Below are positions 1 through 9,570 of a DNA stretch of 47,970 nucleotides, piece by piece. Each line of letters opens with the position of its first letter. The stretch's first letter is position 1. Both the position numbers and the translations under genes were made by a program. Where the stretch lies: the NCBI GenBank assembly GCA_027491035.1, contig JAIXWZ010000050.1, forward strand, positions 1 through 47,970, in the 5' to 3' direction. This DNA is from Comamonadaceae bacterium. GTDB taxonomy: Bacteria; Pseudomonadota; Gammaproteobacteria; Burkholderiales; Burkholderiaceae_C. The notes under the pieces are model-generated. The model was not told where the DNA came from, searched no databases, and saw nothing but the letters and a program-made list of their open reading frames with translations.

Positions 1-1568
1 CAGGGGAACAAGCCCTTCTTGACCTTGATGCCTTGGGCCTTGGCCTGCTCTTCGGTCAGGCCCACCCAGGCCACTTCAGGGTCGGTGTAGGCCACGCTGG
101 GGATCACGCGGGCGTTGAATGCGGCAGCGGCCAGTTCCTTGTTGCCTTGCAACTCGCCCGCAATCACTTCCGCGGCCACATGGGCCTCGTGCACCGCTTT
201 GTGCGCGAGCATGGGCTGGCCCACGATGTCGCCGATGGCAAAGATGTGCGGCACGTTGGTGCGCATCTGAATATCGACGTTGATGAAGCCGCGATCGGTG
301 ACCGCCACACCTGCTTTTTCCGCGGCGAGTTTCTTGCCGTTGGGGCTGCGGCCCACGGCTTGCAGCACCAGGTCGTAGATGCCTTCGCTCTTGCTGCCGT
401 CGAGCCCTTCAAACTGCACCTTGATGCCTTCGGGCGTGGCCTGCGCGCCCACGGTCTTGGTCTTGAGCATGATCTTGTCAAAACGCTTGGCGTTCATCTT
501 TTCCCAGACCTTGACCAGATCGCGGTCGGCGCCTTGCATCAGACCGTCCATCATCTCGACCACCTCAAGCCTTGCGCCGAGCGTGCTGTAGACCGTGCCC
601 ATCTCCAGGCCAATGATGCCGCCGCCAACGATGAGCATTTTCTTGGGCACGCTGGCCAGGCCCAGGGCGCCAGTGGAGTCGACCACACGCGGATCGTCGG
701 GCATGAAGGGCAGGCGCACGGCTTGTGAGCCGGCGGCGATGATGGCGCGCTTGAAGGCGATGACTTTTTTGCTGCCGGTTTTCTGCTGCCCGCTGCCGGT
801 GGTTTCTTCAACCTCCAGGTGGTTGGCGCCCACAAAGCCGCCGTAACCGCGCACGGTGGTGACCTTGCGCATCTTGGCCATGGCGGCCAGGCCGCCGGTG
901 AGTTTGCCGATCACCTTGTCTTTGTGGCCGCGCAGCTTGTCGATGTTGAGCTTGGGCGCGCCAAAGTCCACACCCAGATCGGCCATGTGGCTGACCTCGT
1001 CCATCACAGCTGCGACGTGCAGAAGCGCCTTCGAGGGAATGCAGCCCACATTGAGGCACACGCCACCGAGCGAGGCGTAACGCTCGACGATGACGACCTT
1101 CAGGCCCAAATCGGCGGCGCGGAAGGCGGCCGAATAGCCACCGGGGCCGCCGCCGAGAACGAGCACATCGCAGTCGAGGTCGGCGGTGCCGCTGTAGCTG
1201 GCGGCCGTTGGCGCTGGTGTGGCATCGGGAGGGACGATGCCAGCCGTGGATTGCCGCGCTTGTGTCACTGCGAGCCCGCTTGCGGGCGTGGCAGTCGCAG
1301 CGCCGGGGGCAGCCGCTGCCCCCTCGCCTTCAAGCGCCAACACCACCGAGCCCTGCTTGACCTTGTCGCCAAGCTTGACCTTCAACTCTTTGACCACGCC
1401 CGCGTGGGATGAGGGGATTTCCATCGAGGCCTTGTCCGACTCGACCGTGATCAGCGATTGCTCGGCCTTGACGGTGTCGCCGGGTTTGACGAGCAACTCG
1501 ATGACCGTGACTTCGCTGAAGTCGCCGATGTCGGGAACTTGGACGTCGATAAGGGATGGCGCGTTCAT
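1..1568 (-). CDS. lpdA: Dihydrolipoamide dehydrogenase (E3) with N-terminal lipoyl domain, 3' end cut by window edge
   Basis: E3 of the pyruvate dehydrogenase complex: an FAD flavoprotein that reoxidises dihydrolipoyl groups with NAD+. About 522 codons are visible; the C-terminal dimerisation part lies beyond position 1. Residues 1-78 form a lipoyl domain with the ESDKASM motif (lipoyl Lys46). An Ala/Pro/Thr-rich linker follows (about 79-125), then the FAD-binding [10 protein letters not shown] motif and the redox disulfide [13 protein letters not shown]. The lipoyl-E3 fusion is known in betaproteobacteria. The ATG (1568-1566) overlaps the TGA of the upstream peptidase gene as ATGA, so translation is probably coupled. 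The linker coding region contains a palindromic repeat remnant (1247-1298), listed separately. Confidence 0.96.
1247..1298. repeat. Palindromic repeat remnant inside the lpdA linker
   Basis: On the plus strand this stretch reads tggattgccgcg, then gtcactgcgagcccgc, then gcgggcgtggcagtc. These match the halves of the GTCATTGCGAGG...TGGATTGCCACG palindromic family found intact at 11169-11411, with a few substitutions. The core GAGCCCGC-TT-GCGGGCGT can form a hairpin. It lies in the low-complexity linker between the lipoyl and FAD domains and keeps the reading frame. The match to the family is visible by eye; that it entered by insertion is inference. Confidence 0.55.
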
Positions 1569-2158
1569 GTGTCTTTGACCTTCATCTTCAGGGTGTACAA
1601 CTCCACCGGCGCGGCGGAGTTCTTGTCAAATTCGCAGCCGGCCTGCACACCGATGAGCGCCACCTCGCGCGCGGTGCGGGCCCGGTCCCAGCTGGCATGC
1701 ATCGCGCCCAGGGCAAAGCTGCGACCGGAGCCGATGCCCCAGAACTGCTTGAATTCAAAAATCTCGCGGTAGCTGTACAGACCAAAGATGCCGCTCGAGT
1801 TGGCGATGACCACGCTGAACTGGCTCGACTCGTAAGGGTCGTTCTCGTCTTCCTTGGTCTGCAGATAAAACTGGTCCTTGAGCACCGGGTGCAGGCGGGT
1901 GAAGGTATCGAAAATTTCGTCCTTGCTGCCCAGCAGCACCTGCTCGGGGGGCAAGGCGGCCATGGCCTTGCGCAGCACCGGAAAATGCGCAACAGAGCCG
2001 GCCATGCCGATGTAGTTCACGCCCTGCGGCGTGGCCAGCCGCAAAATCTTGCTGTTGGCTTCAAAACGGCTGCCCAGGCGGGTGTCGCCAAAGGTCACCA
2101 ACGTGTCGGCGGCGATGGCCACCTGCCCTGCTTTTTTGACGATCACCAATGTGGTCAT
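1565..2158 (-). CDS. HslV-like proteasome-family peptidase (betaproteobacteria proteasome homologue, BPH)
   Basis: This 197-residue protein has the N-terminal-nucleophile fold signature of HslV. After loss of Met1 the chain would start [18 protein letters not shown], close to the HslV N-terminus TTIVSVRRNG. By alignment with HslV, Thr1 is the nucleophile, Asp17 is conserved, and Lys36 (in NSKILRL) replaces HslV Lys33 after a three-residue insertion. [11 protein letters not shown] segment matches the HslV GSGG region. The gene is not hslV itself: no hslU neighbour is present and the sequence is divergent. The best known match is the BPH family described by comparative genomics alongside Anbu. 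It lies between aceF and lpdA, has a strong ribosome binding site (GAGGGGAG, 7 bases before ATG), and its TGA overlaps the lpdA ATG. Substrates and any ATPase partner are unknown. Confidence 0.82.
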
Positions 2159-2251
2159 GTGCTGCTCCCCTCGCGTCGCATCTAAAGTGCGTAGGTTAAC
2201 CGCTCGGTACAGCTGAGCTTGGGCTCTGGCCGGTTGAATGCGCGATCGTGC

Positions 2252-3910
2252 TCAAAGCAAAACGCGGCGCATGTCACCCAAGATCTGGCCGAGGTAGGCA
2301 TTAAAGCGCGCCGCCGCCGCACCATCGATGACCCGGTGGTCCCAGGTCAGCGACAGCGGCAGCATCAGGCGCGGCACGAACTCCTTGCCGTTCCACACCG
2401 GCTCCATGGTGCTTTTGCAAACGCCCAATATCGCCACCTCCGGTGCATTGATGATGGGCGTGAAATAGCGCCCACCAATGCCGCCCAGGCTGGAGATGGT
2501 GAAGGTTGCGCCGCTCATCTCGGCTGGGCTGAGTTTGCCCTCGCGCGCCTTCTTGGCCAATTCGCCCATCTCTTGGCTGATCTGCAAGATGCCTTTTTTA
2601 TCGGCATCTTTGACGACCGGAACCATCAGGCCGTTGGGTGTGTCAGCGGCAAAACCGATGTGCCAGTACTGCTTGTAAATCAGCGCATCGCCATCGAGGC
2701 TGCTGTTGAATTCGGGGAATTTCTTGAGCGCGGCCACGCAGGCTTTGATGAGAAAAGCCAGCATGGTGACCTTGATGCCCGACTTCTCGTTGTCCTTGTT
2801 GGTGGCCACGCGAAAGGCTTCGAGCTCGGTGATGTCGGCATCGTCGTGGTTGGTCACGGCCGGAATCAAGACAGCGTTGCGCAGCAAGTTGGCGCCGCTG
2901 ATCTTCTTGATGCGGCTCATCTCCTTGCGCTCGATCGGGCCAAATTTGGCAAAGTCGACCTTGGGCCAAGGAATCAGGCCCAGCTCGGAGCCGCCACCGG
3001 CAGAGGCCGCGGCGGGCGCTTTGGCGGCCTGCGCGCGGGTCTGCGCTGCGCCGGCCATCACGGCCTTGGTGAAGGTCTGGACGTCGTCCTGGGTGATGCG
3101 CCCCTTGGGGCCACTGCCCTTGACCTCTTCGAGTGGCACGCCCAGTTCGCGGGCGAACTTGCGCACCGAGGGTGACGCATGAGGCAAGCCCAAGGCCGCC
3201 GTCGTGGGGCTGTGGGCGGGGGCTGTCTGGGCCCGTGCGGGAGCGGCAACCGGAGCGGGCGCGCTGGCAGGTGGCGCAACGGGCGAGGCAGCGGAAGCCG
3301 GCGATGCAGCCGAAGAGGCAACCGGTGCGACCCCTTCGAGCACGGCCAGCAGATCGCCGATATTGATCTTGTCACCGAGCTTGACCGCCATCTGTTTGAT
3401 CACGCCCGCTGCACTTGAAGGGATCTCCATCGAGGCCTTGTCCGATTCGACCGTGACGAGCGACTGCTCGAGCTTGACGGCGTCGCCAGGCTTGACGAAG
3501 ACCTCAATGACCGTGACGTCCTTGAAGTCGCCAATGTCGGGCACCCGCACCTCCAACGTGCCCACCGGCGACGGCGCTGCGGGCGAAGCTGACGCGGCAG
3601 CGGCCACAGGAGCAAGCGCAGGGCTGCTGGCCACGGCTGCGGGCTGCTCTGGCGGCACAGCGGCGGCCGAATCAGTCGCCTGGAGCAGCACGATGACCGA
3701 GCCCTGCTTGACCTTGTCGCCCAGTTGCACCGAGATGGACTGCACCACCCCGGCGTGCGAGGACGGGATTTCCATCGAGGCCTTGTCCGACTCGACCGTG
3801 ATCAGGCTCTGCTCGGCCTTGACCGCATCGCCGGGCTTGACCAGCAATTCAATGACGCTGACCTCATCGAAATCACCGATGTCCGGAACCTTGACTTCTA
3901 CCAATGCCAT
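2252..3910 (-). CDS. aceF: Pyruvate dehydrogenase complex E2, dihydrolipoamide acetyltransferase
   Basis: This 552-residue E2 forms the core of the complex and transfers acetyl groups from lipoate to CoA. It has two lipoyl domains (about 1-78 and 118-193), each with ESDKASM and lipoyl lysines at 43 and 158. Ala/Pro-rich linkers connect them to a peripheral-subunit-binding domain (about 243-280, ASPSVRKFARELGV...GPKGRITQDDV). The catalytic acetyltransferase domain ends with the DHRVIDG motif (His525, Asp529). The gene starts 15 bases after the aceE stop and has an AGGAG ribosome binding site. A 93-base gap separates it from the BPH gene. Confidence 0.97.
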   Translation of the reverse strand: MALVEVKVPDIGDFDEVSVIELLVKPGDAVKAEQSLITVESDKASMEIPSSHAGVVQSISVQLGDKVKQGSVIVLLQATDSAAAVPPEQPAAVASSPALAPVAAAASASPAAPSPVGTLEVRVPDIGDFKDVTVIEVFVKPGDAVKLEQSLVTVESDKASMEIPSSAAGVIKQMAVKLGDKINIGDLLAVLEGVAPVASSAASPASAASPVAPPASAPAPVAAPARAQTAPAHSPTTAALGLPHASPSVRKFARELGVPLEEVKGSGPKGRITQDDVQTFTKAVMAGAAQTRAQAAKAPAAASAGGGSELGLIPWPKVDFAKFGPIERKEMSRIKKISGANLLRNAVLIPAVTNHDDADITELEAFRVATNKDNEKSGIKVTMLAFLIKACVAALKKFPEFNSSLDGDALIYKQYWHIGFAADTPNGLMVPVVKDADKKGILQISQEMGELAKKAREGKLSPAEMSGATFTISSLGGIGGRYFTPIINAPEVAILGVCKSTMEPVWNGKEFVPRLMLPLSLTWDHRVIDGAAAARFNAYLGQILGDMRRVLL

Positions 3911-3925
3911 GTTGTCTGTCTCCTG

Positions 3926-6640
3926 TCAGGCGTACAAGGGGTTGACCTTGTCGGCCTTGATGCCGTACTTTTGGATCGCCTCGGCCACCTTCTTGGCAGG
4001 CAAGGCCCCCTCCTCGCTCAGAGCTTTGAGCGCAGCGACCACGATGTAGTGGCGGTTGATCTCGAAGTGCTCGCGCAGCTTGCTGCGGAAATCGGAGCGG
4101 CCGAACCCGTCGGTTCCCAAGACCTTGTAGGTGCGGCCCTTGGGCATGAAGGGGCGGATCTGCTCGGCGTAGTTCTTCATGTAATCGGTCGAGGCGATCA
4201 CCGGGCCCACTTGGCCGGCGAGCTGCTGCTCGACAAAAGACAGCTTGGGCGCATCGGTGGGATGCAGCAGGTTGTGCCGCTCAATGGCCTGGCCGTCGCG
4301 GGCCAACTCGTTAAAGCTCGGGCAACTCCAGACGTCGGCCTGCACGCCCCAGTGGGCAGCCAGCAGGGTCTGCGCCGCAATCGACTCGCGCAGAATCGAG
4401 CCCGAGCCCAGAAGCTGCACCCGCTTGTCGCCGTCGGCGCCAGCCTTGCACAGGTACATGCCCTTGATGATCTGCTCTTCGGTGCCCGCAGTCAGACCCG
4501 GCATCGCATAGTTTTCATTGAGCAGCGTGAGGTAGTAAAACACGTTGTCTTGCCGCTCGACCATGCGCTTGAGACCGTGCTGCATGATCACCGCCACCTC
4601 GTGCGCAAAGGTCGGGTCGTAAGAGATGCAGTTGGGAATCGTGCCGGCCAGAATGTGGCTGTGGCCGTCCTCGTGCTGCAGGCCTTCGCCGTTGAGCGTG
4701 GTGCGCCCCGAGGTGCCACCGAGCAGGAAGCCGCGCGCCTGCATGTCGCCCGCCGCCCAAGCCAGATCGCCGATGCGCTGGAAGCCAAACATCGAGTAGT
4801 ACACGTAAAACGGCACCATGATGCGGTTGCTGGTCGAGTAGCTGGTGGCCGCTGCGATCCAGCTGGACATGCCGCCGGCCTCGTTGATGCCCTCCTGCAA
4901 AATTTGCCCGGCCTTGTCTTCCTTGTAGTACATGACCTGGTCTTTGTCGACCGGGGTGTACTGCTGGCCGGCCGGGTTGTAGATGCCGACCTGCCGGAAC
5001 AAGCCCTCCATGCCGAAGGTGCGCGCCTCATCGACCAAGATGGGCACCACACGCGGGCCCAAGGCCTTGTCGCGCAGCAACTGGGTCAGAAAGCGCACAT
5101 AAGCCTGCGTGGTCGAGATCTCGCGGCCTTCTGCAGTGGGCTCGAGCACCGCCTTGAAGGTCTCAAGCGCTGGCACGGTGAAGCTCTCTTCGGCGCGGGT
5201 GCGGCGGTGCGGCAGGTAGCCCCCGAGCGCACGGCGGCGCTCGTGCAGGTACTTCATCTCGGGCGTGTCATCGGCGGGCTTGTAGAACGGCAGCTTGGGC
5301 AGCTCGCTGTCGGGCACGGGAATGTTGAACCGGTCGCGGAAGATCTTGATGTCCTCGTCGGTCAGCTTCTTGGTCTGGTGCACCGTGTTCTTGCCCTCGC
5401 CGGCCTTGCCCATGCCAAAGCCCTTGACCGTCTTGATCAGCAAGACCGTGGGCTGGCCCTTGTGGTTGACCGCCTGATGGTAGGCGGCATAGACCTTTTG
5501 CGGGTCGTGGCCGCCGCGGCGCAGGTTCCAGATGTCGTCGTCACTGAGATGCGCCACCATCTCGAGCGTGCGCGGGTCACGACCAAAGAAATGCTTGCGC
5601 ACATAGGCCCCGTCGTTGGCCTTGAAGGCCTGGTAATCCCCGTCGACGGTGTCCATCATGATCTGGCGCAAGGCGCCGCCCTTGTCGCGCGCCAGCAGCG
5701 GGTCCCAGTTCGAGCCCCAGATCAGCTTGATCACGTTCCAGCCCGAGCCCCTGAACTCGCCTTCGAGCTCCTGGATGATCTTGCCGTTGCCGCGCACCGG
5801 GCCGTCGAGCCGCTGCAAATTGCAGTTGACCACGAAGATGAGGTTGTCCAGGTTCTCGCGCGCCGCCAGGCTGATCGCGCCCAGTGACTCAACCTCGTCC
5901 ATCTCGCCATCACCGCAAAACACCCAGACCTTGCGGTTGGCGGTGTCGGCAATGCCGCGCGCATGGAGGTACTTGAGAAAGCGCGCCTGATAGATCGCCA
6001 TCAAGGGGCCCAGGCCCATGGAGACGGTGGGGAACTGCCAAAACTCGGGCATGAGCTTGGGATGCGGATAGCTCGACAGGCCCTTGCCATCGACTTCCTG
6101 CCGAAAATTGAGCAACTGCTCCTCGCTCAGGCGCCCCTCAAGGTAGGCACGCGCGTAGACGCCCGGCGAGACATGGCCCTGGATGTAGATGCAGTCGCCG
6201 CCATGCTGCTCGCTCTCGGCGTGCCAGAAATGGTTGAAGCCAGCGCCAAACAAATGCGCCAGCGAGGCAAACGAGCCGATGTGGCCGCCCAGGTCACCGC
6301 CATCTTCAGGGTTGTGGCGGTTGGCCTTGACCACCATGGCCATCGCGTTCCAGCGCATGTAGGCGCGCAGTCGCTCCTCGATCTCGATGTTGCCGGGGCA
6401 GCGCGCCTCCTGTTCGGGCTCGATCGTGTTGACGTAGCCGGTGTTGGCCGAAAACGGCATGTCGATGCTGTGCTGGCGCGCCTCTTCGAGCAGTTGCTCA
6501 AGTAGAAAGTGCGCACGCTCGGGGCCCTCGCGCTCGATCACCGCCGCCAGGGCGTCGAGCCATTCACGCGTTTCCTGGTGGTCCTTGTCCTGGGCTGCCG
6601 CATGGGCGCCAAGTCCGATGTCTTGGGGTTGAGCCGCCAT
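3926..6640 (-). CDS. aceE: Pyruvate dehydrogenase E1 component, homodimeric type
   Basis: A 904-residue thiamine-diphosphate enzyme that decarboxylates pyruvate and acetylates lipoyl groups of AceF. Length and sequence match the homodimeric AceE family. The ThDP/Mg motif GDGEMDE is at about 243-249, followed by the NCNLQRLDGPVRGNG segment. It is the first gene of the aceE-aceF-BPH-lpdA operon, with AGGAG 8 bases before the ATG. The divergent upstream region holds candidate control sites (6733-6792). Confidence 0.98.
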   Translation of the reverse strand: MAAQPQDIGLGAHAAAQDKDHQETREWLDALAAVIEREGPERAHFLLEQLLEEARQHSIDMPFSANTGYVNTIEPEQEARCPGNIEIEERLRAYMRWNAMAMVVKANRHNPEDGGDLGGHIGSFASLAHLFGAGFNHFWHAESEQHGGDCIYIQGHVSPGVYARAYLEGRLSEEQLLNFRQEVDGKGLSSYPHPKLMPEFWQFPTVSMGLGPLMAIYQARFLKYLHARGIADTANRKVWVFCGDGEMDEVESLGAISLAARENLDNLIFVVNCNLQRLDGPVRGNGKIIQELEGEFRGSGWNVIKLIWGSNWDPLLARDKGGALRQIMMDTVDGDYQAFKANDGAYVRKHFFGRDPRTLEMVAHLSDDDIWNLRRGGHDPQKVYAAYHQAVNHKGQPTVLLIKTVKGFGMGKAGEGKNTVHQTKKLTDEDIKIFRDRFNIPVPDSELPKLPFYKPADDTPEMKYLHERRRALGGYLPHRRTRAEESFTVPALETFKAVLEPTAEGREISTTQAYVRFLTQLLRDKALGPRVVPILVDEARTFGMEGLFRQVGIYNPAGQQYTPVDKDQVMYYKEDKAGQILQEGINEAGGMSSWIAAATSYSTSNRIMVPFYVYYSMFGFQRIGDLAWAAGDMQARGFLLGGTSGRTTLNGEGLQHEDGHSHILAGTIPNCISYDPTFAHEVAVIMQHGLKRMVERQDNVFYYLTLLNENYAMPGLTAGTEEQIIKGMYLCKAGADGDKRVQLLGSGSILRESIAAQTLLAAHWGVQADVWSCPSFNELARDGQAIERHNLLHPTDAPKLSFVEQQLAGQVGPVIASTDYMKNYAEQIRPFMPKGRTYKVLGTDGFGRSDFRSKLREHFEINRHYIVVAALKALSEEGALPAKKVAEAIQKYGIKADKVNPLYA

Positions 6641-6732
6641 GGCTTAGTCTCCTGCGCTGGTTTCTGCCGTAAACCTGGCGCCTGGGCGCGGCCATCGGGC
6701 ATCGCACAGGTGCAAGGCAATGATTCTGACCG

Positions 6733-6761
6733 GAGTGTCGCACACTTTCCCCATTTTTCAA
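6733..6761 (-). promoter_or_regulatory. Possible aceE promoter
   Basis: On the minus strand TTGAAA (6761-6756) is followed after 16 bases by GACACT (6739-6734), giving a 5' leader of roughly 90 bases before aceE. The -10 match is only moderate. It lies in the one AT-rich patch of the 356-base gap between aceE and the divergent kinase gene (6641-6996). The rest of that gap holds the dyad at 6774-6792 and repeats at 6874-6951. Confidence 0.35.
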
Positions 6762-6773
6762 ATAGTGCTTTTA

Positions 6774-6792
6774 TATTTCATATTAAGAAATA
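6774..6792. promoter_or_regulatory. 19-bp near-perfect dyad, candidate operator upstream of aceE
   Basis: TATTTCATATTAAGAAATA is a 19-base inverted repeat with one mismatched pair around a single central base. It sits about 135-150 bases upstream of the aceE start and about 205 bases upstream of the kinase start. Length and symmetry fit a homodimeric transcription-factor site. It does not resemble the enterobacterial PdhR operator. The cognate regulator is unknown. Confidence 0.45.
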
Positions 6793-6873
6793 CTGACAGC
6801 AATGGCGATCGCCCACTGACTCACGATGACGAAGTGAGGGCCTGACCACGACCTACGCGGGCAGCGACCATCA

Positions 6874-6951
6874 CCCAGCCCCGTCACCGCCACCCAGCTC
6901 CGTCATCGCCACCCCAGCCCCGTCATCGCGAGGCACGAAGCGATCCATCGG
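6874..6951. repeat. Three 19-bp tandem units leading into a half palindromic element
   Basis: Three units of about 19 bases (6874-6892, 6893-6911, 6912-6930) follow the pattern ccCAGCcCCGTCAtCGCca. The last runs into GTCATCGCGAGGCACGAAG and cgatccatcgg (to 6951), the left half of the palindromic element seen complete at 11330-11411. No right half is visible here. Confidence 0.65.
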
Positions 6952-6996
6952 CATAGCACCCAAGGGTTGGAAGGGCCGCACTACACTTGACCGGCC

Positions 6997-9570
6997 ATGT
7001 CGCAACCGCCGTCATCCACGCGCGCGCCGTCGGCGCTGCCGGCTGCCTGGCGGCGCTGGTGGCGACGCCTCTCGCCTGCCCGGCAGGACCGCTTCATCAC
7101 CCTGGGGCCGCTGCTCGCGGTGGCCCTGTTTCTGGCGGCCGTGGTGGCCGCCTTTGGCTACCTGCGCATCGAGGAGATCGACCGCGAAGCCGAGGCCGTG
7201 CGGCGGGATGTGGAGTATGCGCAGCAGCGGCTTCGCCTGCGACTGCTCGAGCGCCAGGAGCAACTGATGCGACTGGGCCGCGACATCTCCAACCGCGAGA
7301 TCAATGTCGACGGCTTCATGGACCAGGCCGAATCCATGATCAGCCAGCACCCGGAATTGATGGCCGTCAGCTGGATCGACGCACGGCGCCGCATCCGGGC
7401 CACCTATGCTTCGCCTAGCGCGGGCGCGGCCCAGCAGCGCGCACCCGGCGATACCCTGGCGGCCGGCGAGACCGACCAGACCTTTGGGCTGGCGCGCGAT
7501 CTCAGGCAGCCTGTGCATTCACGCCCGCTGAGCGCCGGCAGCGAAACCGCCGCGGGCCTGCCCACGGTGCAACTGCAGGTGCCGCTGGACAACCAGGGGC
7601 GCTTTGACGGGGTGATCCTGGGCGAGTATTCCATCGATGGGCTGCTGCGCTTTGGCGTGCCCCCCGAGGTCAGCGCGCGCTATGCGGTAGCCCTGATCGA
7701 CGACCAGGGCCAAATCTTGGCCGGCAGCCTGCCCCCGCCCAGGCCCACGGCGGCCAAGCTGCTGCCCTGGTCGGAGGAAGCGGCCGACTACGAAACCCCG
7801 GTCTCACCCGTGGGCAACGGCCTGCTCATCCGAGCGCAAAGCTACCGCGCCTCGCTGGGCGTGGTGGGCAGTGGATTTTTCTGGTTGGTCAGCGCCCTGA
7901 GCGCGCTGACCGTCTGGATGCTGCTGGGGACCTGGCGCCACACCCGCCGACGCGTGCAGGCGCAAGAGGCCTTGGTGGCCGAAACGAATTTCCGGCGGGC
8001 CATGGAAAACTCCATGCTCACCGGCATGCGTGCGCTGGATCTGCGGGGGTGCATCACCTACGTCAACCCGGCCTTTTGCCAGATGACCGGTTGGAGCGAG
8101 GCCGAACTGGTCGGGCGCACCGCGCCCTTCCCGTATTGGCCCGACGAAGACGTGGAGTGGCTAACGGCCCGGCTCGAAGAAGAGCTGGCCGGGCGCTCGA
8201 CCCCGGGCGGCTTCGAGGTGCGGGTCAAGCGCAAGGACGGCTCGCTCTTCGATGCCCGCATGTATGTCTCGCCGCTGATCGACCCGCGCGGCCAGCAGGC
8301 CGGCTGGATGACGTCGATGACCGACATCACCGAGCCCAAGCGCATCCGGGAAGAGCTATCAAACTCGTACGAGCGCTTCACGACCGTGCTCGAGGGGCTC
8401 GATGCCGCCGTCTCGGTCGCGCCGCTCGACAGCGCCGAGCTGCTGTTTGCCAATCGCCTCTACCGCGCCTGGTTCGGCGCCGATGTGGCCGGCCACCTGC
8501 AGCTGATCACGCAGGCCGGCACGCCCCCCGTGACGCCCAGCGATGACCTGCTCGACCCGGTCGACTCTTTGGTGGGCTTGCCCACACACAGCCTGACCGC
8601 CGCAGCGGCTGAAAACGCTGAAATCTTTGTGCCTGAATTGGGCAAATGGCTCGAGGTGCGCTCGCGCTACCTCAGCTGGGTCGACGGGCGCCTGGCGCAG
8701 ATGATGATTGCCACCGACATCACACCAAGGCGGCATGCCGAGGAGCAGGCAGCGCAGCAGGCCGAGCGTGCGCAATCGGCCAGCCGACTCATCACCATGG
8801 GCGAGATGGCCTCTTCGGTGGCCCACGAGCTCAACCAGCCGCTGACGGCCATCAGCAACTATTGCAAGGGCATGGTCTCGCGCCTCGAGCGCGGCAATAT
8901 CGAAACAGCCGATCTGGTCGGCGCGCTTGAGAAGACCGCCCGTCAGGCTCAGCGGGCTGGCCAGATCATTCACCGCATCCGCTCCTTCGTCAAACGCAGC
9001 GAGCCCAACCGGGCCCCTTCAGACGTGGCCACGCTCGTGAGCAATGCGATGGAGTTGGCCGATATTGAGTTGCGACGCCACCATGTGCGCCTGACGCACT
9101 ACCTGGCGCCCGGGCTGCCCAAGGTGCTGGTCGATCCCATCTTGATCGAGCAGGTGCTGATCAACCTGCTCAAAAACGCGGCCGAATCGATTGAACAGGC
9201 CGCTCGCCCCACCGCCCGGCGGCGCGTCGAATTGCGGGTGAGCCACAAGGGCGCCGATGCGCAGGGCAGCATGGTTGAGTTTTCGGTGCTCGACTCCGGC
9301 CGCGGCCTGTCCGAAGAAAACACCAAGCGCCTGTTCGAGGCCTTCTACTCCACCAAGCCCGAGGGCATGGGCATCGGCCTCAAACTGTGCCGCAGCATCG
9401 TCGAGTCCCATCAGGGGCGGCTGGAGGCAGAGAACCTCTACAATGGCCAAGAGGTTTTGGGGTGTCGCTTCACCTTCTGGCTGCCAGCGGCCAGCGACGA
9501 CACCGAGCCCCCTGAGGATGCGACGCGCCCCGCGGCCGACAATGGCAGCGCAGCGACGATCGCGCGGTAA
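6997..9570 (+). CDS. Membrane-bound PAS sensor histidine kinase (FixL/DctB-like)
   Basis: An 857-residue sensor kinase. A first transmembrane helix lies at about 34-54 and a second at about 289-311, framing a periplasmic sensing domain of about 230 residues. Two cytoplasmic PAS-like regions follow (about 330-450 and 458-575), the first with NPAFCQMTGWSEAELVG and an MTDITEPK ending. The HisKA motif is GEMASSVAHELNQPLTAISN with phospho-accepting His610. The ATPase domain has the N box (NLLKNAAESI, 723-732), DSGRG (766-770) and GMGIGLKLC (790-798). The regulator at 9599 is its evident partner. It is divergent from aceE, so control of pyruvate metabolism is possible, but the ligand is unknown. 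Confidence 0.93.
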   Translation: MSQPPSSTRAPSALPAAWRRWWRRLSPARQDRFITLGPLLAVALFLAAVVAAFGYLRIEEIDREAEAVRRDVEYAQQRLRLRLLERQEQLMRLGRDISNREINVDGFMDQAESMISQHPELMAVSWIDARRRIRATYASPSAGAAQQRAPGDTLAAGETDQTFGLARDLRQPVHSRPLSAGSETAAGLPTVQLQVPLDNQGRFDGVILGEYSIDGLLRFGVPPEVSARYAVALIDDQGQILAGSLPPPRPTAAKLLPWSEEAADYETPVSPVGNGLLIRAQSYRASLGVVGSGFFWLVSALSALTVWMLLGTWRHTRRRVQAQEALVAETNFRRAMENSMLTGMRALDLRGCITYVNPAFCQMTGWSEAELVGRTAPFPYWPDEDVEWLTARLEEELAGRSTPGGFEVRVKRKDGSLFDARMYVSPLIDPRGQQAGWMTSMTDITEPKRIREELSNSYERFTTVLEGLDAAVSVAPLDSAELLFANRLYRAWFGADVAGHLQLITQAGTPPVTPSDDLLDPVDSLVGLPTHSLTAAAAENAEIFVPELGKWLEVRSRYLSWVDGRLAQMMIATDITPRRHAEEQAAQQAERAQSASRLITMGEMASSVAHELNQPLTAISNYCKGMVSRLERGNIETADLVGALEKTARQAQRAGQIIHRIRSFVKRSEPNRAPSDVATLVSNAMELADIELRRHHVRLTHYLAPGLPKVLVDPILIEQVLINLLKNAAESIEQAARPTARRRVELRVSHKGADAQGSMVEFSVLDSGRGLSEENTKRLFEAFYSTKPEGMGIGLKLCRSIVESHQGRLEAENLYNGQEVLGCRFTFWLPAASDDTEPPEDATRPAADNGSAATIAR

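Follow-up and report, generated by a model that had tools for sequence, protein, structure and literature searches.

A proteasome-related peptidase gene, BPH, in a pyruvate dehydrogenase operon of Burkholderiales: a likely single capture and probable independence from HslU

The window analysed here, a stretch of 47,970 nucleotides from a Comamonadaceae bacterium (contig JAIXWZ010000050.1), carries at its low end a minus-strand pyruvate dehydrogenase (PDH) operon in the order aceE-aceF-BPH-lpdA, BPH being the Betaproteobacteria proteasome homolog. The original prediction had placed an HslV-like gene between aceF and lpdA, and the open reading frames together with the Pfam and NCBIfam names of the neighbours bear this out.

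3..1568, minus strand: lpdA, named by Pfam and NCBIfam, encoding E3 (dihydrolipoyl dehydrogenase) with an N-terminal lipoyl domain and truncated by the window end
1565..1568, minus strand: ATGA shared by the BPH stop and the lpdA start, read from the sequence
1565..2158, minus strand: BPH gene, 197 codons plus stop in the list of open reading frames
2159..2251, minus strand: aceF-BPH spacer of 93 nt, in which a ribosome-site-like stretch, GAGGGGAG, precedes the BPH start
2252..3910, minus strand: aceF, named by Pfam and NCBIfam, encoding E2 with two lipoyl domains
3926..6640, minus strand: aceE, named by Pfam and NCBIfam, encoding E1
6997..9570, plus strand: gene for a sensor histidine kinase with a PAS domain, oriented divergently to the PDH operon

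The low end of the window is also the contig end, and anything past lpdA lies outside the sequence. No AAA+ gene was found among the operon genes in view, as expected from the earlier remark that no unfoldase is adjacent, and no terminator-like site was detected in positions 1400-7100, the aceF-BPH spacer included. An RNA element in this spacer was considered and rejected, since the spacer folds no better than its shuffles and contains no unusually stable fold. The predicted four-base overlap is indeed seen at 1568-1565, and BPH may be co-transcribed with the PDH operon and translationally coupled to lpdA. The overlap is no fixed trait, occurring at 27 (24 ATGA, 3 GTGA) of the 74 PDH-linked junctions that could be measured, a count based on 80 loci that include some near-duplicates, six of them with no measurable junction, and on start codons chosen by rule. 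Close adjacency of BPH and lpdA is the rule and overlap is not.

The BPH family, its fold and its placement in PDH operons have already been published by Fuchs and colleagues (PMC5777263); what is added here is evidence on the evolution of BPH and on its independence from HslU. According to that paper, BPH is an HslV descendant without a known unfoldase, the BPHs of two relatives form a tetradecamer (double ring), epoxomicin binds to Thr1 in relatives, and removal of the initiator Met was demonstrated in Cm-BPH. Three operon types were distinguished in the same text, namely argG, PDH (in Cupriavidus) and Hsp33. No later functional study of BPH was found among open-licence PMC papers.

The product of the window gene is a 197-residue Ntn peptidase of the HslV/proteasome type, as judged by sequence and fold match. 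A phmmer search against solved structures retrieved Cm-BPH from Cupriavidus (5OVU) with an E-value of 4e-66, and the solved sequence relatives at E up to 1e-3 amount to just two distinct proteins, both of them crystallised BPHs. The predicted model has a mean pLDDT of 83, with the acidic pore loop as its lowest-confidence stretch, and its best Foldseek match is again 5OVU (E 6.5e-20, 52% identity), followed by 5OVS/5OVT and then HslV. HslV models score 24.7 bits against a cut-off of 157.75 and 26 against 137, and thus the curated HslV cut-off is missed. The Pfam family PF00227 (Proteasome) is scored at 20.5 bits against a cut-off of 22.4; since many BPH relatives carry PF00227, this score fails to separate BPH from a 20S proteasome beta subunit. 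The dN/dS values of 0.05-0.26 for BPH (10 comparisons) and 0.12-0.20 for E3 (9 comparisons) indicate that BPH is under purifying selection. The phmmer match, the 5OVU-like predicted fold and the dN/dS range together argue that the BPH reading frame is not a chance one. Of the 120 BPH homologues listed, 9 are called 'MFS transporter' by NCBI (for instance P0009, P0015 and P0036), which is wrong for an Ntn peptidase of about 197 residues, and the naming of many homologues as 'HslV' by JGI is imprecise.

The protein starts with Met-Thr-Thr and has no propeptide. The three predicted active-site residues, numbered with the Thr following the initiator Met as 1, and the pore loop map as follows; conservation is given for an alignment of 146 distinct BPHs that leaves out loci outside the order.

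2153..2155, minus strand: codon of Thr1, the predicted catalytic residue, which Met removal would expose (Thr in 144 of 146)
2105..2107, minus strand: codon of Asp17 (Asp in 143 of 146, Glu in 3)
2048..2050, minus strand: Lys36 codon, equivalent to Lys37 of Td-BPH and to Lys33 of the proteasome (Lys in all 146)
1829..1861, minus strand: acidic pore loop of 11 residues; the loop is known from PMC5777263

All three residues named in the original prediction are therefore present, and the conservation of Thr and Lys on which it laid weight holds among homologues. Its description of Lys36 as standing in place of HslV Lys33 needs correction, as nothing has been replaced: Lys36 aligns with the Lys of the Cupriavidus BPH (5OVU), and Td-BPH Lys37 is given as the counterpart of proteasome Lys33 in PMC5777263. 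Natural Asp17-to-Glu exchanges occur in otherwise full-length PDH-linked BPHs at four loci (L003, L019, L172, L198). Position 1 is Ser in the remaining two of the 146 proteins, which start with Met-Ser: L061 (5001-5582), in an argG-yajQ setting, and L130 (5001-5573, BPH turned to plus), a second copy on a long branch, the other BPH of that genome (L131) having Thr1. In members of the class that lie beyond the order, Ser1 was found in 29 of 29 loci read, in line with PMC5777263; if the order is equated with Betaproteobacteria, L061 and L130 are exceptions to the rule given there. The pore loop has a net negative charge in all 104 rows compared and in all gene contexts, and a PDH-specific pore loop was accordingly rejected. 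E32, Y129 and F133 alone reach 90% or more within the PDH group and stay under 15% in both the Hsp33/15 group and the argG group.

BPH is patchily distributed in the family of the window, being present in 53 of 200 genomes drawn and in 37 of 126 genera. All 52 intact family copies, comprising 51 loci and the window, lie directly between aceF and lpdA (two of the 51 loci are truncated by contig ends, and their placement was checked separately). The 53rd carrier, G397, retains at the same aceF-lpdA site (locus L199, about 5950-6250 with BPH turned to plus) a 98-codon remnant of BPH that has lost an internal segment in frame. The lpdA match of this locus begins at residue 115, as if lacking the lipoyl domain, and the genome is 6% contaminated. 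Broken BPH genes were also considered for nine stop-flagged genomes (G012, G285, G451, G446, G406, G482, G152, G308, G192) and rejected, because these rows are open for 190-194 codons up to the flagged stop, which is the ordinary stop codon at the gene end; the BPH fragments of G668 and G661 were left out of this reading, and G397 is a true remnant. The source of the window probably belongs to the same genus as Polaromonas sp. A23, whose aceF piece shows no difference from the one in G485, a genome of the window's genus.

Where BPH is missing, the PDH operon is mostly closed up. In six of the seven genomes examined among the 147 BPH-less members of the family, aceF is joined directly to lpdA, and the same holds in BPH-less genomes of other families (G021, G032, G015). 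In the seventh family genome (G103, locus L135) an unrelated 294-codon reading frame without a Pfam match fills the aceF-lpdA gap (3102-3983, aceF turned to plus). The lpdA of G032, which belongs to a PDH-linked family, is matched only from residue 128 (L143), as if lacking the N-terminal lipoyl domain. Carriers with BPH elsewhere have aceF and lpdA spaced by 3-101 nt (G016, G033, G039), and in two further such carriers, G058 and G128, no lpdA match was found on the stretch examined. On an aceF tree of 61 family rows (53 of them carriers; L127 was too short for inclusion), BPH presence needs at least seven changes, a count that is blind to gain versus loss and comes from a quick tree with many weak branches. 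BPH has likely been lost many times without disturbing the PDH operon, to judge from these comparisons between genomes. In the same tree the aceF of L198 (G429) clusters with another family (f32) and not with its own, a placement that could stem from transfer or from a mixed assembly.

In the survey of the order, 117 of 300 genomes and 64 of 140 genera had BPH, and 79 loci were read: one per carrier genus other than that of the window (63 loci) and 16 more, 14 of these from the 117 carriers (L133, a 1-kb repeat of G271, was excluded, and L026/L027 are duplicates of L055/L056). With contexts assigned by tblastn and neighbours named by Pfam, 35 lie in an Hsp33/Hsp15 context (29 with Hsp33 and six with Hsp15 alone), 22 in the order argG-BPH-yajQ, 14 in a PDH operon and eight in other settings. 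Hsp15 was assigned through a Pfam S4 domain and yajQ through Pfam DUF520, the gene names being those we take these domains to represent. The PDH context accounts for 14 of 14 loci in six families and for none of the 65 loci of other families. The original prediction had named freely varying neighbours among relatives as telling against its proposal; such free variation is not seen, but the neighbours do differ from clade to clade (Hsp33/Hsp15, argG-yajQ, PDH). The gene downstream of lpdA varies between loci, and in the 11 PDH loci with a call none came from a gene cluster found in three genera; the outer flanks have thus turned over and the inner order has been kept. In the argG loci, yajQ follows BPH in 22 of 22 cases, and a gene for Ppnp (pyrimidine/purine nucleoside phosphorylase) lies between argG and BPH in 14 of 22 (for instance L070, L076 and L099). 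Outside the order but within the class, where 29 of 42 carriers were read with at most 1.5 kb on each side, none had PDH, Hsp33 or arg neighbours in that range.

The PDH-linked proteins also group together by sequence. In a quick tree of 100 rows, 33 PDH-linked BPHs fall on one side of a branch with an SH-aLRT of 93, and in a careful tree of 97 rows, built without L018, L130 and L026, 32 do so with support of 96/94. The tag 'other' on L018 in the quick tree does not reflect its neighbours; the BPH encoded there is the same as the one at the Hsp33 locus L094. In the quick tree Cm-BPH lies inside the PDH-linked clade and Td-BPH in the argG clade. A single capture of BPH by the PDH operon is the simplest reading and a likely one on these trees; the BPH gene tree is unrooted, and hence the direction of capture is inferred.

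The genome of the window (90% complete) yielded no HslV match and no HslU above cut-off, and it is one of ten among the 53 BPH carriers of the family draw in which HslV is missing. Three of the ten belong to the window's genus, eight are at least 99% complete, and one genome of the window's genus, G395, is a single contig. HslU was searched for in 20 of the 53 carriers: it was above cut-off in none of the ten without HslV and was found in all ten tested among the 43 with HslV. This indicates that BPH can persist without HslU in the cell, and HslU as a hidden partner of BPH was rejected on the same grounds. The idea that BPH and HslV exclude each other within the family was likewise rejected, HslV being present in 43 of 53 carriers and 128 of 147 non-carriers (Fisher p 0.36). 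In this tally, made by hand, G350 (a partial match below cut-off) was counted as positive and G313 (E 6.5e-4) as negative.

Based on these data, we consider BPH to be probably an unfoldase-independent general peptidase, predicted to form a double ring, whose gene was likely captured once by the PDH operon. The PDH operon would give BPH steady housekeeping expression and not a dedicated substrate. In the window protein, Met removal would expose Thr1, to be activated by Lys36 and Asp17, and unfolded or damaged protein segments may then pass the acidic pore loop and be cut inside the barrel. The substrates would be unfolded or damaged proteins at large, the enzyme serving general clean-up. This last element is weakened by the findings in PMC5777263 that BPHs of two species showed no activity towards peptides or casein and that BPH left the carbonylation patterns of extracts unchanged. 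Two further observations speak against the preferred reading: the constant placement of all 52 intact family copies within one operon could mean functional coupling, and the recurring Hsp33/Hsp15 contexts point to a possible role in stress, for which housekeeping expression alone does not account.

Such a role was proposed by Fuchs and colleagues in 2018, for whom BPH degrades oxidised proteins as a stress protease and the three operons are linked by heat and oxidative stress. The Hsp33 or Hsp15 gene adjoining BPH in 35 of 79 loci fits this proposal, as does their argument on carbonylation of PDH, but the carbonylation tests in the same paper were negative and we judge argG and yajQ to be weak links to stress; overall we regard it as unlikely. 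A peptidase dedicated to PDH in the PDH-linked clade, trimming or removing damaged or mis-assembled E2/E3 or lipoyl-domain linkers, appears more doubtful still. It would account for the single clade of PDH-linked BPHs, the conserved place between aceF and lpdA, the overlap at a share of the junctions and the three PDH-group residues. However, the pull-downs of Cm-BPH, from a PDH-linked species, yielded neither PDH subunits nor HslU (PMC5777263), in keeping with the earlier statement that no functional tie between BPH and PDH is established. The same enzyme occurs in unrelated operons, and presence is patchy, with aceF mostly directly before lpdA in non-carriers. Together these three points disfavour PDH as the sole substrate, and the gene contexts differ by clade while active site and pore loop are constant, which speaks against PDH as a dedicated substrate.

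It is very improbable, in our view, that BPH became after its capture the PDH complex's own unfoldase-free peptidase, cutting lipoyl-domain linkers of E2/E3 or stalled nascent subunits; in the tested genomes of the window's genus BPH is the only HslV-type peptidase left, and if the idea were true, a proteasome relative would police a metabolic megacomplex without ATP. We give hardly any credence to the view that BPH still works with HslU or another AAA+ unfoldase encoded elsewhere, which draws on its descent from HslV (PMC5777263) and its fold match to HslV, but is opposed by the HslV-less carriers that also lack HslU above cut-off (ClpX-like and other AAA+ proteins remain), by the visible operon genes and by the published pull-down.

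BPH has structures but no known substrate. Since the PDH context was inherited within a single clade, substrates are best sought by comparing PDH-, Hsp33- and argG-linked species. The ten carriers without detected HslV and HslU offer backgrounds in which BPH activity is not attributable to HslVU.

Among known systems, HslV (ClpQ) shares with the window BPH the Ntn fold and the catalytic layout; the window protein differs in falling far below the HslV cut-offs, in its long acidic pore loop and in coming from a genome in which no HslU was found. The Thiobacillus denitrificans BPH (5OVS, 5OVT) is of the same family and has the same active site, but it belongs to an argG operon according to PMC5777263, falls in another clade and is 34% identical to the window BPH. 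The closest counterpart is the BPH of Cupriavidus metallidurans (5OVU). The two loci that branch closest to it, L097 and L118, lack the overlap onto lpdA that the window locus shows, and about half of the residues of the window and Cupriavidus proteins are identical (52%). These two proteins share the family, Thr1/Asp17/Lys36, the acidic pore loop, an operon with three PDH genes and a place in the PDH-linked clade.
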